Shown: positions 3,272-35,673 of the stretch, piece after piece
Position numbering within the stretch: the stretch's first letter is position 1
How the letters are laid out: each line of letters opens with the position of its first letter
Assembly: GCA_017477465.1 (NCBI GenBank)
Contig: JAFUVU010000030.1
Coordinates: 1-37,058, forward strand
Length of the DNA: 37,058 nt
Direction of reading: 5' to 3'
Origin: Bacteroidales bacterium
GTDB taxonomy: Bacteria; Bacteroidota; Bacteroidia; Bacteroidales; UBA932
Translations under genes and position numbers: made by a program
The notes under the pieces: generated by a model
What the model was told of the DNA's origin: nothing
The model's database searches: none
What the model saw: only the letters and a program-made list of their open reading frames with translations

Positions 3272-3302
3272 CAAATATAGACAAAGATTTCGATCCGAAC
3301 AA
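3272..3302 (-). promoter_or_regulatory. promoter of the nuclease-domain gene
   Basis: Minus-strand TTG (3302-3300), 20 bases, then TATATTTG (3279-3272), an exact TAnnTTTG match. It implies a leader of roughly 110 bases before ATG 3157. The rest of 3158-3405 shows no gene or repeat. Confidence 0.6.
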
Positions 3303-3405
3303 GACGAAACAACACCGCCACCCTCGGAACGAAGGATACCGGCTCGGAAGAGCAGAATACTTCGCAGGGAGCTGCCAGAAATGTCGATAGAGTCATTTTA
3401 GCGTG

Positions 3406-27062: not shown

Positions 27063-27935
27063 TCAGCGAATATCCGCATATTCTATAAACCCTTCTTGAT
27101 CATAGCCCCGGTGACAAGCGTTGATAAGGTCGACGAGAGGCTGCACACGGGAATCCGTCACCCGCATGTTCCGGAAATGCTGATACTGTTCGTCATAACG
27201 TGCCGCACTGCCTTTGAGAAGCCGCTCCCGGGCATCCGAAGGAACGAGGAAGCGGGCCCGTGGGCCGATTTTAGCATAGAACTCAGTCAGAAAGATATTC
27301 ACCCCTGCAAGGTCCAGGTCCCCGAAATGATAATAATCATTGGGAATGCTTTTCAGCCACTTTACAAGGTCTCCGTTTTGTGGATACCGGCTGACGAACA
27401 ACAGTTTGCGGCCGAACAGAACCTGCCCGAAAAAAGACCGCTGCCTACGGATCAAACGGAAATTCTCTGCATTTTCAATGCCCACTACGGTGACATCCGG
27501 AGCCGGACGGAACGCCTGGAAATCAGAAATATATGTGAATGTCCCCTCCGGAGGGCACACCGTCATAATGCGGTCTTTCAGAAAACACGGCACGGGTTCA
27601 TAACTGTTCACCAGGAAGCCGAACATGCTGCGGTACGCATTGTATTTGGAATCGCCCGTGAGGTGAACAAGACCTGCACGCTCCCCTGCTTTCGTCCCTT
27701 CCAGCAAAGCCCAGACGGACTCCCTCTCCGGAAGATCCAATGTCCTTTGCAGAAAGCCCATCAGCCTCTCCCTGTCTATGGCCTTTACTGTCCGTCTGCT
27801 GCCATGGGAGACCACCGTTACCATGCCTTCTGCTTGGAGCGTTCCAAGCCAATCTGCACCCAGGGCGCTTCCGGGAACAGATTCTCCTTGTAATAGGCGC
27901 CACAGCGTCTCAGACAAAGTCTTATTCAGTTTCAT
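27063..27935 (-). CDS. jetD: Wadjet nuclease subunit JetD
   Basis: A 290-residue nuclease of the Wadjet anti-plasmid system. The N-terminal third is helical (winged-helix-like arm). The C-terminal Toprim domain, related to topoisomerase VI A, has the metal residues Glu154 (VVGIENAENF) and Asp206 and Asp208 (HFGDLDLAGVNIF). In known Wadjet complexes JetD cuts circular plasmid DNA after the JetABC motor has extruded it. ATG 27935 is chosen (MKLNKTL), but 27941 and 27953 are in frame; all overlap the 3' end of jetC (stop 27922-27924), so translation is coupled. It is the last gene of the operon. Confidence 0.88.
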   Translation of the reverse strand: MKLNKTLSETLWRLLQGESVPGSALGADWLGTLQAEGMVTVVSHGSRRTVKAIDRERLMGFLQRTLDLPERESVWALLEGTKAGERAGLVHLTGDSKYNAYRSMFGFLVNSYEPVPCFLKDRIMTVCPPEGTFTYISDFQAFRPAPDVTVVGIENAENFRLIRRQRSFFGQVLFGRKLLFVSRYPQNGDLVKWLKSIPNDYYHFGDLDLAGVNIFLTEFYAKIGPRARFLVPSDARERLLKGSAARYDEQYQHFRNMRVTDSRVQPLVDLINACHRGYDQEGFIEYADIR

Positions 27936-30900
27936 GGGCATTGTGTATGGCAATCAGCGGAATAATCCGGGTGTTGGAATCAACGTCCTTGTCCAGGGCG
28001 TATGTATATTTGTAGTCCCCAACATCGTAGGTAGTTGGCGAACCGTTCACCAGCCAGATGTTGCGGCTGCCGGCAAACTGGAGAATCCCCCGCACATTCC
28101 GGGGATGAAGGCGGCCGATTTCGTCCATCATGCAGTGGAGGCAGAAATCCCCGAACTTCTTGCTGGCCTTCCGCTTGAAAACATTCAGCAGCATGATGTT
28201 CACCATGGCCTTTACCAGAACGTCCGTTCCGTCGGAGCCAACGGTGGAAACGCGCTCCGTCCAGCCGGTATCGTTGTCATTCTCGATGACCCGGAACTGC
28301 AGGGTAAAGGTGTCTCCAAGGTCCAGCATACGTCGCTGCGGATCTGCTTCCAGATGCCGCTGAAGGCTTTTGAGAAACTGGATGGTCTGGTCCGTCAGGT
28401 TTCGCCGGTCTTCTTCCACAGAGAAGAGATTCACCGCTCCGAAACCAAAAGAATTCTCCAGCGTGAAATCCCGTATCTTCACAAGCAGTTGCATCAGCGG
28501 ATCTTCGCTGCTTACCCAACGGAGGGAAATATCCTTGATGACACCAGCGAAATTGCGCTCCCGGAAATCGGCATTGATCTCGCCGATGGTTTTGCTGACT
28601 TCGCTGGAACGGCCGGTCAGATCCCCCACCTCTTTGGAAATGCGCTGGAGGATGTCCTCATACTGATGGCTTACGCGTTCCGAGTAGGTAGAAATCATGT
28701 CGTTCTCCACAAAGTCCGAGAGGTCTGCCGCGAAACTCATATAATCCTCGTCGGAGAACAGCTCCGTGCGGAACTTGAAGGTGTTCCGGGCAGAGAAATT
28801 GCCTTTGAAACTGTTGGTAACGGAACGCAAATCTTCCCGCCGGTTGGTACGGTCGAAGATGAAGGATTTCAGTTCATTCAGGATTCTTGGCAGGTCCTCC
28901 TTGCTCTCTTCTTCCGGGACATCCCGGACTTCCTGCGGACACACGCGGGTGTCATCCAGGAAGAGTTGCGCCTCCTCAAGACCCTTGCGAAGCTCCTGCA
29001 AGGAGCCCGCGACATCATGAAGCCTCTTGTCATTCTCGGCTTTTTGAGCCTGATGCTTTTCGGCAGTTGCCTGATGTCGACGGTCCAAGGAATCCTGTTT
29101 GGCCTGAACCGCTTTCTTTTTCTCTTTGGTTTCCTCCTCCCGGTCCAGATGGTCTTCCTTGTCTTTCAGATAATCATGGTAATCTTTGAGCTTTCCGGCA
29201 ATGTATTGCAGTTCAGCCCTTAGCTGGCTGATTGACGTTTCCAGCTTATGGATGGCCGCGACGTCAGCGCCCTGTCCGGATAGTTCTGCGGTCTCCTGGG
29301 CTTTCAACCGTTCCAGTTTGGATGAAGTATCCTTCTCACGCTCAGATAATTCGACAGCGATTTCATCAGACCGTTCTTTGAGTGCCGCCTCCAGCTCCGC
29401 CTTCCGGGCCTCCCGCTCGCGGAGAGATTCCCGGATTCGCCGGTCACGCTCCCGCATAATCTTCTCCCGCTGTTTTCCGGCGTCATCTTTGCGGGCGGCG
29501 AGGTCCGTCAGGGTGGCCTCGATCTTTACCCTTTCGCTCTCCCGCCAGGCCTTCTCGGCTTCAAGAGCCTGCGAAATCGCCATCTCAACCTGCGAGAGTT
29601 GGGAAGGAATCATGGCGTTTTCCGCCTCTGCGGCATGCTTCTCTTCCCGTAAGATGCGGATCTTGGCCGAATATTCCTGACGCATCTTGTCTATGGCATC
29701 CCGGCAAGCGTTCCAGGAGTCAGCCTGCTGCCTCTTGACGGAATCCCGTTCCCTTTCCAGTCCGGCCTTTTCGGCCGCCAGCTCCTCGGGCGTACGGATT
29801 TGCCGCTCCAAGGAGTCCAAATCCAGACGGACGCCGTAAAAAACACCCTCGTCCGGAGCAAGCTGCGGATTCATCCCGGGAGTGTAGAGAATCTCTTCTC
29901 CCGCCACCTTGCCGATACTCTCCGCCCAACCGGGACGATTCTCTTGAAGCCATCCAAGAAGAGACCCTTTGCTGCGCCCAAGCAGGGTATCCATCGCATC
30001 TATCTGCTTCTGGTAAGCCGCGATTTCCCTCACAAACGCCTCATCGGCATGCTCCCCGGCTGAGGAGAGATCTTTTTCCTTGAGTTCCGCCTCATGAAGC
30101 AGGGAATCGATCTTCGCCCCCAGCGAAAGCGATTTCTGTTTCAGTTCATGAGCCTTTGCCTCCAGGCTGCGCTTCTTTTCCTCCAGGCCGGATGTTTTGT
30201 CCCCATACGGGTGTGAAAGTCCTACGCGCACACGACTCTCCTTCACCCGGCTCTCTTCATCCAAAAGAGCACGGAAAGCGGCATCGGCTTCTGCCGAGGC
30301 TTCATCAAACCACGCATGGGTCTTCTCATCACGAAGGCGCAGGGCATCATCGGCACGAGACAGCTCTGATACATACTTTTCCCGAAGGTCCTGAAGGCGG
30401 GAGCGCTGCTCCGTCTCGAAATCCCTGAGCGTCTGGCGGATGGTATCGGATAACCCTTTGTACTTGTCCCGGACATTCACATAAGCCTTGGTGAGACTTC
30501 CGAGGACGCTTTCCTGCCTGTCGAGTTCCGCCTTTACGCGGCCTTCGGCTTCAATTCTGCGAATCAGCGCAGGGATGTCCATGGAGTCGTATTTTTTCTG
30601 TAGTGCACGAATAGTTGCGAGCTCGGTCTCCACGGTTCCCAGGCTCCGCTGCAGGGAGTCCCGTTCGCTGCGGTAGCTTTTGTCTTCGTCGGCAATGAGC
30701 CGGTCCACGCGCTGCTTTTCTTCCAGCAGCAGTTTTTCCCGGGCCTCCAGCGAGGGAATCACCTCCGAATCCCGCCGCATTGCATACTTGAACTGCGCCC
30801 CCAGCGTGATGATTTTCCCGTTAGAAAAAAGAATGTTACGGTATGCATCTATCACTTTGTCCGCCGCATCCCGGATCCGGATACGCCCGTTTTTTTCCTT

Positions 30901-31593
30901 AATGAACCACTTCTCGATATCGGCATACTGCTGCCTGAACTCCTCCACCGCATGACGGTAGAACCCCAGGTCTATCCCCTCCTCCGCCTCCGTCAGGGAA
31001 CGGATGATGGTCTGCTTGATGAAGTCGGCATCCAGGCGGGAATTCAGGAACACGTTCTGGATGGTGCGCGGGATGTTCTGATAACGGGAACTCTCGGCAA
31101 TGCAGAATTTCCTGTAGGCCGCAGGGAGACCGGCATTGTTCCCGAAGATGATATCCCGGAAAGTGTCATAATGGTCAACGATTCCGCTGATATACACCTT
31201 TTCCGGGATGCGGCTTCGGATGTGCCACCAGTCGGAGTATACCATGTTGTCATCGTCCATAAAAAAGCCGCGGTCATAAGCAGTATCCACAAAGCGGAAG
31301 GCCACGCGGCCTGCATGCCGGAAAGCCACGATGAAGTAGCGGCCCGTCTCCCGCACCACTTCATAAACGATGTAGGAATTATGCTTGTCAAAATAGAAGG
31401 CGTCGAAACTTTTCTTCTCCCGCGGGATGCCCAGCTTCAGTTTATCGGCATTGTAGAAGAACAGCAACGCCCGCAGGACCGTGCTCTTTCCAGCCCCCTG
31501 ATTCCCGATTAGATGCACGTTTCCGTCGAGGCTGACCTCGGCATAGGGAATGTGCGCACTGTTGATAAAAACGATTTTATTGAGGTATCTCAT
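27922..31593 (-). CDS. jetC: Wadjet SMC-like ATPase JetC (MukB-like)
   Basis: A 1223-residue SMC-family ATPase and the DNA-extruding motor of Wadjet. Walker A is GNQGAGKST at residues 30-38. Two long charged coiled-coil arms fill about 240-900, with a hinge region near 560-600 (GWLQENRPGWAESIGK). The ABC signature-like loop is STVGSDGTDVLVKAM, and Walker B is HCMMDEIGRL with catalytic Glu, followed by the late switch (NIWLVNGSPTT). The small unusual hinge and the downstream JetD separate it from MukB. Length is normal for the family. Its start overlaps the end of jetB by 17 bases. A long ORF on the other strand at 27778-29223 is its shadow. Confidence 0.92.
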   Translation of the reverse strand: MRYLNKIVFINSAHIPYAEVSLDGNVHLIGNQGAGKSTVLRALLFFYNADKLKLGIPREKKSFDAFYFDKHNSYIVYEVVRETGRYFIVAFRHAGRVAFRFVDTAYDRGFFMDDDNMVYSDWWHIRSRIPEKVYISGIVDHYDTFRDIIFGNNAGLPAAYRKFCIAESSRYQNIPRTIQNVFLNSRLDADFIKQTIIRSLTEAEEGIDLGFYRHAVEEFRQQYADIEKWFIKEKNGRIRIRDAADKVIDAYRNILFSNGKIITLGAQFKYAMRRDSEVIPSLEAREKLLLEEKQRVDRLIADEDKSYRSERDSLQRSLGTVETELATIRALQKKYDSMDIPALIRRIEAEGRVKAELDRQESVLGSLTKAYVNVRDKYKGLSDTIRQTLRDFETEQRSRLQDLREKYVSELSRADDALRLRDEKTHAWFDEASAEADAAFRALLDEESRVKESRVRVGLSHPYGDKTSGLEEKKRSLEAKAHELKQKSLSLGAKIDSLLHEAELKEKDLSSAGEHADEAFVREIAAYQKQIDAMDTLLGRSKGSLLGWLQENRPGWAESIGKVAGEEILYTPGMNPQLAPDEGVFYGVRLDLDSLERQIRTPEELAAEKAGLERERDSVKRQQADSWNACRDAIDKMRQEYSAKIRILREEKHAAEAENAMIPSQLSQVEMAISQALEAEKAWRESERVKIEATLTDLAARKDDAGKQREKIMRERDRRIRESLREREARKAELEAALKERSDEIAVELSEREKDTSSKLERLKAQETAELSGQGADVAAIHKLETSISQLRAELQYIAGKLKDYHDYLKDKEDHLDREEETKEKKKAVQAKQDSLDRRHQATAEKHQAQKAENDKRLHDVAGSLQELRKGLEEAQLFLDDTRVCPQEVRDVPEEESKEDLPRILNELKSFIFDRTNRREDLRSVTNSFKGNFSARNTFKFRTELFSDEDYMSFAADLSDFVENDMISTYSERVSHQYEDILQRISKEVGDLTGRSSEVSKTIGEINADFRERNFAGVIKDISLRWVSSEDPLMQLLVKIRDFTLENSFGFGAVNLFSVEEDRRNLTDQTIQFLKSLQRHLEADPQRRMLDLGDTFTLQFRVIENDNDTGWTERVSTVGSDGTDVLVKAMVNIMLLNVFKRKASKKFGDFCLHCMMDEIGRLHPRNVRGILQFAGSRNIWLVNGSPTTYDVGDYKYTYALDKDVDSNTRIIPLIAIHNAHETE

Positions 31594-32128
31594 CTTTCAC
31601 CTCCTCCGAAACGGCTATGATATCCATCATTTCTTCGATATAGTGGAAGGCCGCTGTGACGCGGTAGCTCCCTTCCAGCTCATTGAGCATCTCCGCAAAA
31701 CCGATTGCTTCCAGCTCCCGGGTGATCTTTTCCGCCACATCGGAGAAGTTTTTCACCCCCGGGAAAAGCTTTCCGGCCTTGTCCTTGAGCTCTACATCGC
31801 CCGAGATGGCAATCACGATGTCCGACGGCGTGAACTCGAAACCCGGACCGAAGGTGGAATTGAAGGTTTTCAGGAAGTCGATGTAATCGATCCAGCGTAG
31901 CAATGCCTCCAGCTTTCGCTGCAAGTCCGCCTTGCTCTCCTTGCGGCTGAAATAGAAATAGCCGTCGCCGCTTTCCAGGATGAAGCCGACGCCTTCGTAA
32001 TAGGCCCGATACTCCTGGAATCCGTCATCCAGGGCATCGTACCAGCGCCGCACCTGCTGCGAGGTGCTGTCGGCCGATATGAAGGCGCCCTTGGAAAGCG
32101 TATCGAATATTTCCCTTGTGTACTGCAT
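31577..32128 (-). CDS. jetB: Wadjet subunit JetB (MukE-like, DUF4194)
   Basis: A 183-residue protein and the KITE-type winged-helix partner of the Wadjet SMC complex. Features are SQQVRRWYDALDDGFQEYRA, GVGFILESGDGYFYFSRKE (the winged-helix beta-hairpin) and a helical tail (VAEKITRELEAIGFAEMLNE). It bridges JetA to the JetC heads and contacts DNA. Its ATG overlaps the jetA stop by one base (TAATG), and its 3' end overlaps jetC, so subunits are made in fixed ratio by coupled translation. Confidence 0.85.
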   Translation of the reverse strand: MQYTREIFDTLSKGAFISADSTSQQVRRWYDALDDGFQEYRAYYEGVGFILESGDGYFYFSRKESKADLQRKLEALLRWIDYIDFLKTFNSTFGPGFEFTPSDIVIAISGDVELKDKAGKLFPGVKNFSDVAEKITRELEAIGFAEMLNELEGSYRVTAAFHYIEEMMDIIAVSEEVKDEIPQ

Positions 32129-33348
32129 TATTTGGGATAGATTATAGGATGTTCGACAAAACAGTTTTTTTCATGGATGGTCATGGAGCTTTGCTCCCAG
32201 CGTCCAGACTCCAGCTGGATTCCATCGGGATAGAGGGTCGCCAGCTGGCAAAAGAGCACCAGTTTCTGCCCATCATCCATAGGCACCTTATATTCAAAAT
32301 CCACCACGAAAGAGAAAAGGTCCTTACCCTGCGCCCGGAAGAGGTTGTACATTTCCTGCTGGTCCACCATTTCCACCTTTCTGGAGGCCGTTTCCAGGAA
32401 TTCCGGGCCGATGGCGCCGGCGGTTTCCCGGCCGATTGCACCTGTCTTGCCCTTTTGCACGACGCTTCGAAGCACCGACAGAGCATCTTCATCGTTGAGA
32501 AGGCTGTCCAGGGAAAGCTTGAGCCTGTACCGTGGCAGCGGATCCATCCAGACCGGGCTTTCCATGAGCGCCCGACGCCGTATGTCCGTGTATTCCGTGA
32601 TGGTGAGCTGGTCGCGGAGGTACTTGAGCGTGCGGATTTTCTGGAGCAGGCGGTTCTGATACTCGATGAGATTCAGGTATTCCAGGATTTGCCGGTTGAT
32701 CTCGATGAGGCTGTGGTAGGCATCGTTCAGGCTCAGCCGCACTTCACCTACTGCCTGACGCAGGACACCGTCCATGGCCGATGAGAAGAACGCTTTCTGG
32801 CCTTCGTCCATCACCCGTTCGCACTCCACGATAAGTGCTTTGATGATATCGTGTTTCTGGTCCAGATGCACCAGTTTTTCCTTTTTGATCAGGTAGTTGG
32901 GCTCGTTCTTATAGACCGTATCCACATTGCGTTTGAGGTCCACAGTGCTCCGCAGCACGGCCCCTGCAATGTTGTAGAGGGTACGGACGACGGCCCTGTG
33001 ATAGCTGAGCTTCCTTCGCGGGTTGGTTTCCTTGAGCCAGTAGTCGATGTGCTGGTTCAGGGTATCGATGTAATCCTTCACGCTGGAGATGGCTATCTCC
33101 TCATTCACCTGAAGGACCTCTTCGAAGAAGCGCAAATAACTCTCCTCCAGCTCCAGGAAACCGGCATTCTGCCGCAGTACGCCGTATTCCAGCAGCAGGT
33201 CCAGCCGCCTGGCGTCACCGTCCACCAGATCCTCCGCAATATCCCTGCGGAAGGACAGAGATTTCCGTTTTGCGAACATTTCCTTCAGCAGCTCCTTCTC
33301 CCGGGCAAGGACCTTGAGCAGTTCTTCTATGGATCTGAATTGTTTCAT
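32128..33348 (-). CDS. jetA: Wadjet kleisin-like subunit JetA (MukF-like)
   Basis: A 406-residue protein and the kleisin of Wadjet. The N-terminal winged-helix region (residues about 1-90: SLSFRRDIAEDLVDGDARRL) is followed by long helices (DYIDTLNQHIDYWLKETNPR and onward). The C-terminal winged-helix domain that holds the JetC head lies from about 330 (DLFSFVVDFEYKVPMDDGQK) and ends FVEHPIIYPK. I use ATG 33348 (MKQFRS), which overlaps the stop of the upstream 203-residue gene as ATGA; an in-frame ATG at 33357 is also possible. This coupling is the main reason to place the upstream gene in the Wadjet operon. Confidence 0.85.
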   Translation of the reverse strand: MKQFRSIEELLKVLAREKELLKEMFAKRKSLSFRRDIAEDLVDGDARRLDLLLEYGVLRQNAGFLELEESYLRFFEEVLQVNEEIAISSVKDYIDTLNQHIDYWLKETNPRRKLSYHRAVVRTLYNIAGAVLRSTVDLKRNVDTVYKNEPNYLIKKEKLVHLDQKHDIIKALIVECERVMDEGQKAFFSSAMDGVLRQAVGEVRLSLNDAYHSLIEINRQILEYLNLIEYQNRLLQKIRTLKYLRDQLTITEYTDIRRRALMESPVWMDPLPRYRLKLSLDSLLNDEDALSVLRSVVQKGKTGAIGRETAGAIGPEFLETASRKVEMVDQQEMYNLFRAQGKDLFSFVVDFEYKVPMDDGQKLVLFCQLATLYPDGIQLESGRWEQSSMTIHEKNCFVEHPIIYPK

Positions 33349-33956
33349 TGTTCCCAATGTACTTGCAGTGGCGAGAGCGGAACCCTCCTGTGGTGGCCGT
33401 TATTGCCCTGGACCTTGACATCCTGCGCTTGAGTGAGCGGAAGGATTCGGTCCAAGGTTGCATTGAGCACCGAAAGGTTCTCGCTGAATGCGTTTTCTTC
33501 AGAATCGGTCAGTCGTCTCACCCTGCGGCGCCTGTCTTGTGCATCGACATGTGGCGCGATAACTTCGTATATTTCCTCCAGCTCCTCCCGAAAATGGATG
33601 CGCTCCTTGAGAAGAATCCCCTCAGGGTGTTTCAGAAAGAGGATGAACAACGACCGAACCAGCGGCCGGAAAGAAATCTCCTGGCCTTGAGGGCTACCCA
33701 GGCGAATGTGGTATTGCCTGTCGACATAAAGTTCCACGGAACGTTCGTTCCTTACCTCCGAGATGGCTGCATCTTGTTCTTGCCCTATTTCCTTCAGCCG
33801 CCTCTTAGCCTCTCTCACTAAAGAAAGAAGCTCCGCCGCCGCCATTCCTTCCAACATCCCGGCATAGTCAGCAACAGGCTCCATAAGGAGCCCTTCGTCC
33901 ACCTGGAACAACAGTTTCCATACCAACTGCGCTTCTATTCCCACATACTCAACCAT
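33345..33956 (-). CDS. Wadjet-operon leading gene, possible winged-helix protein
   Basis: A 203-residue protein not part of the canonical jetABCD set. The middle reads FRPLVRSLFILFLKHPEGIL, then LKERIHFREELEEIYEVIAP. A helix-turn-helix-strand pattern with a K/HPEGI(x)L(K) wing resembles winged-helix domains of the OmpR/KilA-associated kind. After it, DRRRRVRRLTDSEENAFSEN and a basic tail (HHRRVPLSPLQVHWEQ) follow. I recall similar unnamed proteins in Bacteroidetes but cannot name a family. It is the first gene after the operon promoter, and its stop overlaps the jetA ATG, so it is made together with the complex. It may regulate the operon through the inverted repeats at 34042-34078, or be an extra subunit. 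Confidence 0.7.
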   Translation of the reverse strand: MVEYVGIEAQLVWKLLFQVDEGLLMEPVADYAGMLEGMAAAELLSLVREAKRRLKEIGQEQDAAISEVRNERSVELYVDRQYHIRLGSPQGQEISFRPLVRSLFILFLKHPEGILLKERIHFREELEEIYEVIAPHVDAQDRRRRVRRLTDSEENAFSENLSVLNATLDRILPLTQAQDVKVQGNNGHHRRVPLSPLQVHWEQ

Positions 33957-34149: not shown

Positions 34150-34167
34150 CTGTAAAGGAATTATCGT

Positions 34168-34241
34168 GGCCGCGGTGGGATTCGAACCCACGATTTCGAC
34201 ATTTGCAAGTGTTGTCCTTTAAACCACTAAGGTACGCGGCC
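34168..34241 (-). tRNA. tRNA-like gene with 8-base anticodon loop (Cys GCA-like)
   Basis: A 74-base cloverleaf in normal order on the minus strand. The acceptor is GGCCGCG/CGCGGCC (7 of 7 pairs). The D stem is CCTT/AAGG with a nine-base loop containing GG. The T arm is GTGGG-TTCGAAT-CCCAC (5 of 5), with a five-base variable loop. The anticodon stem CAACA/TGTCG pairs at four of five positions and closes an eight-base loop, CTTGCAAA. A normal tRNA has seven. If the extra base is ignored, the likely anticodon is GCA (Cys), with TGC (Ala) as alternative. Discriminator is A; CCA is not encoded. It may be a frameshift-reading tRNA, a decoy or tRNA-like RNA, or a pseudo-tRNA. It is the last element of a cluster following the 268-residue protein gene. 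Confidence 0.6.
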
Positions 34242-34320
34242 TGGACCGGGTGTCTTATCCTTCTTTCCCGGCCCCAGGTTGGCCGACAGGATTCAGAGTA
34301 TTTCAAGTTGATGCTGATTT

Positions 34321-34405
34321 GCCCATAATCTACCAATTGATCTAACCCGCCGTATAGTAACTTGATTTTGAGGCGGGTGCGGGACTTGAACCCGCAGCCT
34401 TGGGC
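34321..34405 (-). tRNA. candidate circularly permuted tRNA gene (3' half before 5' half)
   Basis: On the minus strand the order is: anticodon-stem 3' strand GCCCA (34405-34401), variable loop AGGCT, T arm GCGGG-TTCAAGT-CCCGC (34395-34379), acceptor 3' strand ACCCGCC (34378-34372), 20-base linker, acceptor 5' strand GGCGGGT (34351-34345), TA, D arm GATC-AATTGGTA-GATT (34342-34327), A, and anticodon-stem 5' strand TGGGC (34325-34321). Rejoined as a tRNA, acceptor 7/7, anticodon stem 5/5, T stem 5/5 and D stem 4/4 (one G-U) all pair, with normal spacing. The break is at the anticodon loop, so the anticodon is not encoded contiguously, and I cannot name it. TTAAGT and ACTTGA in the flanks could pair and close the precursor. 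Two broken tandem tRNA copies would be the simpler alternative. Confidence 0.5.
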
Positions 34406-34463
34406 TTTTTGTCGAAACACTTAACCTCCGAAGAGCCTGTGCTTTGAACCATAATGCAGATGC

Positions 34464-34559
34464 TTTGGCACGATGCTGATGCTCAGATCACAACGAGCGG
34501 GATGATTCCCGCTGCGATGCGGATAAAGCTGATTCATAATGCTGAAGCTTTCTGCCAAA
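34464..34559 (-). ncRNA. cloverleaf-like RNA element directly after the 268-residue gene
   Basis: A 96-base segment closed by a perfect 7-bp stem, TTTGGCA (34559-34553) with TGCCAAA (34470-34464). Inside are AAGC/GCTT (4 bp, where a D stem would be), AGCGGG/CCCGCT (6 bp, 6-base loop) and CTGA-GCA-TCAG. There is no TTCRANY T-loop, so it is not a normal tRNA. It starts five bases after the stop codon of the protein gene. Either a much-altered tRNA or another structured RNA. Confidence 0.35.
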
Positions 34560-34564
34560 CGGGG

Positions 34565-35371
34565 TTATTGATCCCCGTAGAAGATATAATTCAGAAACTT
34601 GTCTACAGCAAGATTCGGCTCCATTGTAGGGGTATCGTTAACGGTCTTTGTCGCTTCGATTACTGCGCTGAGCAGCTTGCTGATACGCTCCTGAACCAGT
34701 TGTTTCTGCCGCAGCGTCCATTCCCCCGAGAACTTTTGGGATGTGTATGAGCCGCGTTTTATTGTCGTTTTAACCTCTTTTGTAATAGGCCGGTAGTTGG
34801 ACGGCAGGTGCTCCTTGTCGATATTGGGATCCAGCAGGATCTCTGTATCCGTAATGGTGGTGAAACTGTCCCCTTCCAGACGAGGCGACTCGTAGATATC
34901 GGCCCGACCCTGATAATCCTCATTGCCACTGACCGACCATATTTCCGAATCTGACCGGACAGGAATATTCTGAACTACCTGCTTAAGATTCTCATCTGTG
35001 AGGATATTCTTGAGCCGCAGAAGTTCCGTTGCCGACAGACTCCCCAGATTGAGCCCGTCAACCACAAAGGGGACCCTTGCCGATCCGGCCGCATTCGTCG
35101 CCTCAATGGCGAACTGGTCCTTAAGATAAGGCAGCAGGGCCCTGTCCACCAGGCGGTCAATCTCTTCCGAAACCGTAGTTGCCACTACCGTATGGCCCAT
35201 CTTGGTCGGATCTTCCAGCTGCCCCTCAGCCGCATGAAACGTCTTTTTCTCACCTTTGAATGAAGAGGGATTCCGCTTGAAAAACTCCCCCTGTTTACGA
35301 AGCGATTCCGTATAAACCGCCCGCTCGTGCTCAGCCTTTGCCAGCGTAACGTTCATCTTTTCCTGTGCCAT
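34565..35371 (-). CDS. conserved protein of unknown function leading the tRNA-like cluster
   Basis: A 268-residue soluble protein. Residues 1-55 are highly charged and helical (ERAVYTESLRKQGEFFKRNP). About 65-135 looks like a compact domain (VVATTVSEEIDRLVDRALLP, then VPFVVDGLNLGSLSATELLR). About 140-215 is strand-rich (SEIWSVSGNEDYQGRADIYE). A helical end (LRQKQLVQERISKLLSAVIE) follows. From memory it resembles a Bacteroidetes and phage family labelled DUF7873, but I cannot confirm this. It has no signal peptide or catalytic motif that I recognise. It has its own promoter and upstream palindrome. The tRNA-like elements begin five bases after its stop, so it probably works with these RNAs. 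Confidence 0.7.
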   Translation of the reverse strand: MAQEKMNVTLAKAEHERAVYTESLRKQGEFFKRNPSSFKGEKKTFHAAEGQLEDPTKMGHTVVATTVSEEIDRLVDRALLPYLKDQFAIEATNAAGSARVPFVVDGLNLGSLSATELLRLKNILTDENLKQVVQNIPVRSDSEIWSVSGNEDYQGRADIYESPRLEGDSFTTITDTEILLDPNIDKEHLPSNYRPITKEVKTTIKRGSYTSQKFSGEWTLRQKQLVQERISKLLSAVIEATKTVNDTPTMEPNLAVDKFLNYIFYGDQ

Positions 35372-35437
35372 GTCATATCGTATTCATATCCCCAAAACAA
35401 GCGGAAAGCGGTGGGGACAGCCCGGCATTTCCAATGG

Positions 35438-35469
35438 CAAAGGTACACCGGCATTTCGCCCTCTGCAAA
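35438..35469 (-). promoter_or_regulatory. promoter of the 268-residue gene and RNA cluster
   Basis: Minus-strand TTTG (35469-35466), 20 bases, TACCTTTG (35445-35438), both exact matches to the Bacteroidetes consensus. The leader is about 60 bases to ATG 35371. Confidence 0.65.
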
Positions 35470-35493
35470 TCGTTGCAAGGTTTGCAACAATTT
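35467..35493. promoter_or_regulatory. 27-bp near-perfect palindrome over the -33 element
   Basis: AAATCGTTGCAA (35467-35478), GGT, TTGCAACAATTT (35482-35493): 11 of 12 arm positions match. It overlaps the TTTG of the promoter at 35466-35469, as a repressor or activator operator would. The remaining bases 35494-35673 contain no gene or repeat that I can identify. Confidence 0.6.
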
Positions 35494-35673
35494 GGAGAAT
35501 CCAGAAGAATTACAGGTTGAAGAGTCTTTTCCGAACGAATACAGTTGGCACGTCGTATCAACTGCCCTACCGGTCCAGCCCGCTGGCAGGGTATCGTCAA
35601 GAACAACCTTTATCGCACATAGGGAGCCAAGCCGATGGATCCTCCGGGGCCGGTACAGCAATCACCAGGACTC

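Follow-up and report, generated by a model that had tools for sequence, protein, structure and literature searches.

The 37,058 nt stretch of Bacteroidales DNA that we have analyzed (the window; contig JAFUVU010000030.1) contains a real, conserved, permuted tRNA-like RNA at 34321–34405 on the minus strand. It lies beside a gene for a DUF7873 protein in a compact cassette found in rumen Bacteroidales, and similar modules occur downstream of DUF7873 genes in phages. The recurrent pairing of DUF7873 with a permuted RNA in many unrelated phages points to an undescribed RNA–protein system. The RNA is likely to be a Y-RNA-like tRNA mimic tied to DUF7873, and probably does not belong with the permuted tRNA genes of algae and archaea.

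A sequence-only reading of the DNA had described a tRNA on the minus strand whose 3′ half comes first and is separated by 20 bases from the 5′ half. Direct reading and a geometry scan confirm this permuted order at exactly 34405–34321. The anticodon-stem 3′ strand GCCCA (34405–34401) is followed by the variable loop, the T arm GCGGG-TTCAAGT-CCCGC (34395–34379) and the acceptor 3′ strand ACCCGCC (34378–34372). The 20 intervening bases lead to the acceptor 5′ strand GGCGGGT (34351–34345), the D arm, and finally the anticodon-stem 5′ strand TGGGC (34325–34321). The two halves form all seven acceptor and all five anticodon-stem base pairs, as had been claimed. The same reading held that such matching was unlikely by chance, and this agrees with a scan of 200 order-1 Markov sequences modelled on the window, which gave 0.015 geometry matches each on average. 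Neither ARAGORN nor Rfam at its gathering scores calls the permuted stretch, and standard tRNA searches report only an ordinary tRNA at 34241–34167. A relaxed Rfam search places YrlA, a bacterial Y RNA, on the permuted stretch at 28.1 bits, against a gathering score of 69.

The flanks of the module pair with one another to form closing helices (34286–34440, minus strand), with 34440–34436 paired to 34290–34286, 34431–34427 to 34297–34293, and 34420–34412 to 34306–34298. All are in the predicted fold. The minimum-energy fold of 34450–34255 includes the module structure, and its stability is ordinary (z = −1.07, with 30 of 200 shuffles folding equally well).

The module is part of a cassette of ~1.2–1.33 kb that occupies 34163–35497 on the minus strand of the window, with limits set by blastn similarity to relatives. 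The first element is the DUF7873 gene (34565–35371), encoding 268 amino acids that match PF25283 at 88.5 bits (cut-off 27). This is followed by a leader domain (34465–34558), identified from the alignment and a count of pairs, that is closed by TTGGCA/TGCCAA and contains an inner hairpin. The permuted module comes next, then a hairpin with a loop around AAGGATAA (34242–34278), and lastly the ordinary tRNA (34167–34241) with an 8-base anticodon loop (tgca); the body of this tRNA is conserved and its anticodon varies among relatives. All of these elements are on the minus strand.

A contig scan of genomes gave the loci of 10 relatives, in MAGs of rumen and related Bacteroidales. Some handles denote the same locus (L001, L003 and L020; L002, L017 and the window), and L018 and L019 apparently duplicate L005 and L011, so that each of these pairs was counted once. 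The DUF7873 proteins are 88–94% identical, the match in L012 being partial (residues 174–268 only). In blastn comparisons all 10 loci stop resembling the window at 34160–34168, where the ordinary tRNA has its 3′ end. The 5′ limit is 35494–35509 (~125–140 nt before the gene) in L003–L006 and L010, and coincides with the gene start (35371–35376) in L007, L008, L009 and L011. The neighboring genes are mostly different, and some pairs of loci (L008/L010 and L008/L009) have neighbors in common. The order of the cassette is kept across the 11 rumen loci, and 10 of them have the permuted module. The exception is L012 (5285–5555), where the module has been lost and the leader, hairpin and tRNA are retained; by eye, the loss lies between two copies of AAAGCATC. 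The cassette is rare. With the window's own genome included in the counts, it was found in 2 of 199 family genomes by protein, in 4 of 398 by RNA pattern and in 1 of 395 genomes of a phylum sample. The plasmids searched gave no match.

Alignment of the 11 loci reveals compensatory changes. Standard pairs fill 97.1% of 849 cells, and 12 of 81 pairs have changed on both sides. On four of five covariation measures none of 500 shuffles scored as high; the fifth (further pair types) was not unusual, being reached by 71 of 500. The contributors are the acceptor, T and anticodon stems of the module, the two outer closing helices (three pairs with changes on both sides), the inner hairpin of the leader (83.3% paired, one double change), the second hairpin (94.3% paired, with 2 of 8 counted pairs changed on both sides) and the T stem of the ordinary tRNA. 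Three elements are weakly informative: the inner closing helix, which is near-invariant, the D stem, which changes on one side only, and the outer helix of the leader, which is 96.9% paired with no double change. The sequence-only reading had looked to related loci for compensatory changes in the acceptor and anticodon stems; they are found in both, and in the T stem too.

That reading had also raised the possibility that two damaged tandem copies of one tRNA could give the same picture. Tandem tRNAs can indeed mimic a permuted one in covariance searches, and two examples in one phage record (L024) reach 27.6 bits with YrlA (111–224) and E = 0.003 with R1, a model described below (206623–206838). 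Yet compensatory changes are present, the outer halves that decayed copies would have left are seen in none of the 11 rumen loci, and the same arrangement recurs across many phage lineages. Two complete tandem tRNAs, which had been named as a contrary finding, are likewise present in none of the 11. We therefore reject tandem decay on the basis of the covariation, and regard it as scarcely credible.

The association with DUF7873 extends well beyond the rumen bacteria. A tblastn search found the protein in 88 phage records altogether, those of phages of Vibrio (29), Prevotella (15, all Lak megaphages), Gordonia (12), Rhizobium (12), Klebsiella (7), Serratia (6), Arthrobacter (3), Pseudanabaena (2), Rhodococcus (1) and Microcoleus (1). 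Five giant-phage contigs with DUF7873 came from IMG/VR, where a first protein scan and an RNA pattern scan gave nothing. Several of the phage genes sit inside tRNA arrays. We fetched 19 loci from the phage records together with the five IMG/VR contigs, and scanned 23 of them for the module geometry, excluding a fourth Lak locus (L015). Sixteen of the 23 have one or more permuted tRNAs in the 900 nt downstream of the DUF7873 gene, in phages of Arthrobacter, Gordonia, Rhodococcus, Rhizobium, Klebsiella, Vibrio and Pseudanabaena and in giant phages. The sequence-only reading had picked out the permuted order together with a protein gene, and this association is supported. The 20.7 kb of downstream sequence contains 24 matches. 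The remaining 138 kb has 8 on that strand, seven of them A/T-rich, and 5 were on the minus strands of the scanned loci. Among the 24, one is spurious (the third in L029, which overlaps the second), and the first in L037 has a poor anticodon stem. Two modules each are present in the Arthrobacter, GodonK, NiceHouse, Klebsiella and Pseudanabaena phages. Some of the phages are related pairs and are not independent (L031/L040, L035/L039, L027/L038, L033/L034 and L028/L037).

Stem pairing is no evidence in the phage set because it was a rule of selection in the scan. U8 is present in 20 of 21 phage modules and the D-loop GG in 21 of 21, and the scan required neither of them. Seven of the 23 loci gave no scan match, comprising five Lak or Lak-like loci, L025 and the Microcoleus phage. 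The L025 module was missed by the main scan and is found by relaxed rules and by R1. In the Microcoleus phage DUF7873 is present and a permuted module was not found; by eye, a tRNA-like stretch in normal order, apparently lacking a D arm, follows the gene (L036, about 3290–3400). The tRNA-Sup-TTA annotation in Klebsiella phage FBKp24 (L039, 3518–3597) may be wrong, because it and the 3′ half of a permuted module overlap.

The covariance model R1 was built from 10 rumen modules alone. When it was run over 20 sources, all 12 matches at E < 0.01 outside the window lay within ~400 nt downstream of DUF7873 (L039, L024, L035, L025, L026 twice, L021, L032, L034, L033, L029 and L030). The first match to tandem tRNAs in these sources came at E = 0.029. 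R1 is weak on the Vibrio modules (E = 0.23 in L027 and 0.57 in L038), and the modules of L028, L031 and L037 were not among the matches in the 20 sources. Searching whole records gave matches in 9 of 10 at E = 0.05 or better, and the genome of the window was matched at the window only. The whole L025 record gave nothing, although L025 had been matched in the 20-source run. The whole L024 record was also matched at tandem tRNAs (206623–206838, E = 0.003). The one of the 15 Lak records that was searched, Lak-B5 (MK250024.1), has a match at E = 0.005, which is weak by score because the tandem tRNAs of L024 reach E = 0.003, and which is 160 kb from the DUF7873 gene. The site has a 7 bp acceptor stem and a TACTG/CAGTA anticodon stem; leader-like sequence precedes it, and a hairpin and a tRNA whose loop has 8 bases follow. 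One of the IMG/VR giant-phage contigs with DUF7873 (record G801) has another permuted tRNA-like stretch far from that gene (L043; 28833–28902).

Could these be genuine permuted tRNA genes, as the sequence-only reading had proposed? In that case a functional tRNA would result from cutting and joining of the precursor at the anticodon end, perhaps with the help of DUF7873 or of a ligase from the phage, and from loss of the intervening bases. The modules resemble the permuted tRNA genes of red and green algae and archaea in the order of the halves, the pairing of the stems, a short intervening stretch and a break at the anticodon end, and their acceptor, T and D features are canonical. The intervening stretch is 6–38 bases long, inside the 1–74 quoted for known permuted genes in the part of the source available (PMC3978253). 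The modules differ from those genes in having no canonical BHB motif and no recognized anticodon. The canonical form of the motif was found at the junction in none of 24 modules (the window, three rumen and 20 phage modules, with a shift of one base allowed), where 0.39 would be expected by shuffling, and splicing at a canonical BHB was rejected accordingly. By eye, we recognized neither a consistent anticodon loop (U33/R37) nor a common anticodon in either half. The conserved closing helices also speak against rejoining, and RtcB, the sole RNA ligase searched for, was found in just 2 of 16 phages.

The 3′ ends of the acceptor strands bear on both sides of this question. N73-CCA follows directly in 12 of 24 phage modules, from phages of Arthrobacter, Gordonia (GodonK), Rhodococcus, Rhizobium, Klebsiella and Vibrio. 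This set of 24 includes L025, leaves out the spurious L029 match, and differs from that used for the BHB motif. The other 12 have a tail that is not CCA, with TCTA, TCTG or TCTT in the giant-phage modules and in the second modules of L026 and L030. Eight of the nine rumen modules listed have TCTA and that of L004 has TCCA; the window has TCAA. A permuted RNA has no free 3′ end at this point, and therefore a CCA is present only if encoded. An encoded CCA is equally compatible with a mimic of the acceptor end and with a tRNA precursor. We also considered whether modules carry CCA where the ordinary tRNAs of their phage do, and rejected this, since CCA is encoded by 0 of 7 ordinary tRNAs in L026, 2 of 17 in L029 and 0 of 10 in L030, and modules in all three have it. 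The permuted order of the sequence-only reading stands as real, conserved and covarying, whereas rejoining into a tRNA does not accord with the junctions, the loops or the closing helices. We think it unlikely that real permuted tRNA genes, many of them encoding CCA, are present in DUF7873 phages and some rumen bacteria and are matured by cutting and joining with DUF7873. If they were, they would be the first in the bacterial domain, and DUF7873 would be a new family of tRNA-processing proteins.

A permuted intron–exon arrangement would place the parts of a split self-splicing intron on either side of the halves and generate RNA circles. The flanks are structured and conserved, but unrotated Rfam models of intron families gave nothing at relaxed E-values in the window, L001, L013–L016 or L021–L028. 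We consider this explanation very improbable.

The closest known structure is YrlA (RF02553; PDB 6CU1), which also has a permuted tRNA-like domain closed by a helix of its own flanks. The available part of the ARTEMIS paper (PMC11472068) reports that 6CU1, a bacterial Y RNA, can be superposed on tRNAs once a circular permutation is allowed for. The sequence-only reading had regarded a permuted tRNA in a bacterium as new; on that partial source, the permuted fold was already present in bacterial Y RNA. The pairing of the module ends into a closing helix, a defining feature of YrlA, is seen here in the predicted fold and in the covariation; the duplex of the flanks beats shuffled sequences by a modest margin only (z from 0.8 to −2.9). 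Might this then be a classical Y RNA that uses a Ro60 protein of the host or phage? The fold is the same, and the YrlA model gives 28.1 bits in the window, 33.6 in L001 and 32.9 in L026, all below the gathering score of 69. We rejected the score itself as proof since tandem Asn and Lys tRNAs (L024, 111–224) reach 27.6 bits, a warning for searches for permuted tRNAs. TROVE, the domain of the Ro60 protein that is usually encoded near YrlA, was detected under none of 13 handles of bacterial carriers (probably 11 genomes, mostly incomplete MAGs) and in 1 of 16 phages, and the constant neighbor of the RNA is DUF7873. The rumen RNA differs from YrlA further in being followed by a hairpin and a tRNA, and half of the phage modules differ in their N73-CCA.

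The single phage with TROVE is Rhizobium phage TM61, in which three T-arm/acceptor stretches in permuted order (L042, at 336, 491 and 1078) lie within ~1.1 kb of the TROVE gene, a finding that favors a Ro60 connection. TM61 also carries DUF7873 with its own module. Since both are present, each with permuted stretches, the two systems seem to coexist there. According to partial texts, some jumbo phages have TROVE/Ro60 RNPs with a tRNA-like partner (PMC7824862), and Vibrio phage pir03 has a Ro60-related ORF (PMC7765460). Such RNPs are similar in combining a phage-borne protein with a tRNA-like RNA, and different in that the protein is TROVE rather than DUF7873. Given the Ro60 and score results we do not file the RNA in the Ro60 Y RNA family, and a classical Ro60 RNA seems improbable. 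tmRNA likewise has a tRNA-like domain with the anticodon part replaced, and short stretches match it weakly; the present module is permuted, and the matches are fragmentary (14–23 bits, against a gathering score of 47).

PF25283 scores the phage proteins at 114–358 bits, with 10 of 10 passing the curated cut-off of 27, and the DUF7873 of the window is 45–48% identical to its giant-phage homologs. Searches of PHROGs, PADLOC, NCBIfam and PDB sequences returned no function for it. DUF7873 was named in no paper found by a literature search that was thin on subscription journals. Papers on permuted tRNA with bacteria or phage, and on Y RNA with phage or Ro60, contained no DUF7873-linked RNA that we recognized in the parts available, which mostly did not cover subscription journals. 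Of 14 control genomes, Deinobacterium chartae was the sole carrier of TROVE and the sole carrier of DUF7873.

We suggest that a structured non-coding RNA is encoded alongside DUF7873 and that the module forms the tRNA-like domain of this RNA. The RNA would fold like a tRNA that is open at the anticodon end and continuous at the acceptor end, with a long helix of its own flanks replacing the anticodon loop. The RNA might then work like a bacterial Y RNA, remaining permuted and lacking an anticodon. The locus is presumably transcribed, and DUF7873 may bind the RNA in place of Ro60 to form a ribonucleoprotein. The module may have reached these bacteria from phages. The likeliest use would be as a tRNA decoy or tether, for example in occupying host nucleases that cut tRNA anticodon loops; the decoy role taken by itself is a tentative proposal. 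On this Y-RNA-like reading, an uncharacterized family of phage proteins gains a recurrent RNA partner, and permuted tRNA mimics spread beyond Ro60. If DUF7873 does bind these RNAs there would be a second Y-RNP-like system in phages, probably connected with competition over tRNAs in infected cells.

The ordinary tRNA of the cassette may contribute to processing. Its acceptor, D and counted anticodon-stem pairs are invariant in the 11-locus alignment, and its anticodon is gca in L003, L004 and L007, agt in L005 and L006, tgt in L008–L010 and aat in L011. The 8-base anticodon loop of the window is shared by L012, and an A·C mismatch in the anticodon stem is present in 13 of 13 sequences. The variable anticodon and the mismatch would therefore fit a role in processing more than in decoding, and the tRNA may serve mainly as a cut site for RNase P that frees the 3′ end of the RNA. 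Inspection by eye found no partner for the variable anticodon loop elsewhere in the RNA. In 19 of the 26 loci given, the distance from the last module to the start of an ordinary tRNA is at most 300 nt, and seven have none in range.

Some other features were observed around the cassettes. In the window, a divergent MksB/MksE-type (Wadjet-like) SMC operon lies beside the cassette on the minus strand (27063–33956), with matches to MksE (E = 8.6e-39) and DUF3584 (E = 1.6e-56), weak ones to JetB/JetC, and two genes without a Pfam match. By eye, a T4 Rnl2-type RNA ligase-like gene and two calcineurin-like phosphoesterases are near cassettes (L011, 2000–3193; L003, 6166–7607). A REP-like repeat, a palindrome around GTTGCAANNNTTGCAAC, lies upstream of the cassette gene at about 35490–35460 of the window, and the same palindrome occurs near other genes in related loci (L011, 4917–4933; L019, 321–337).
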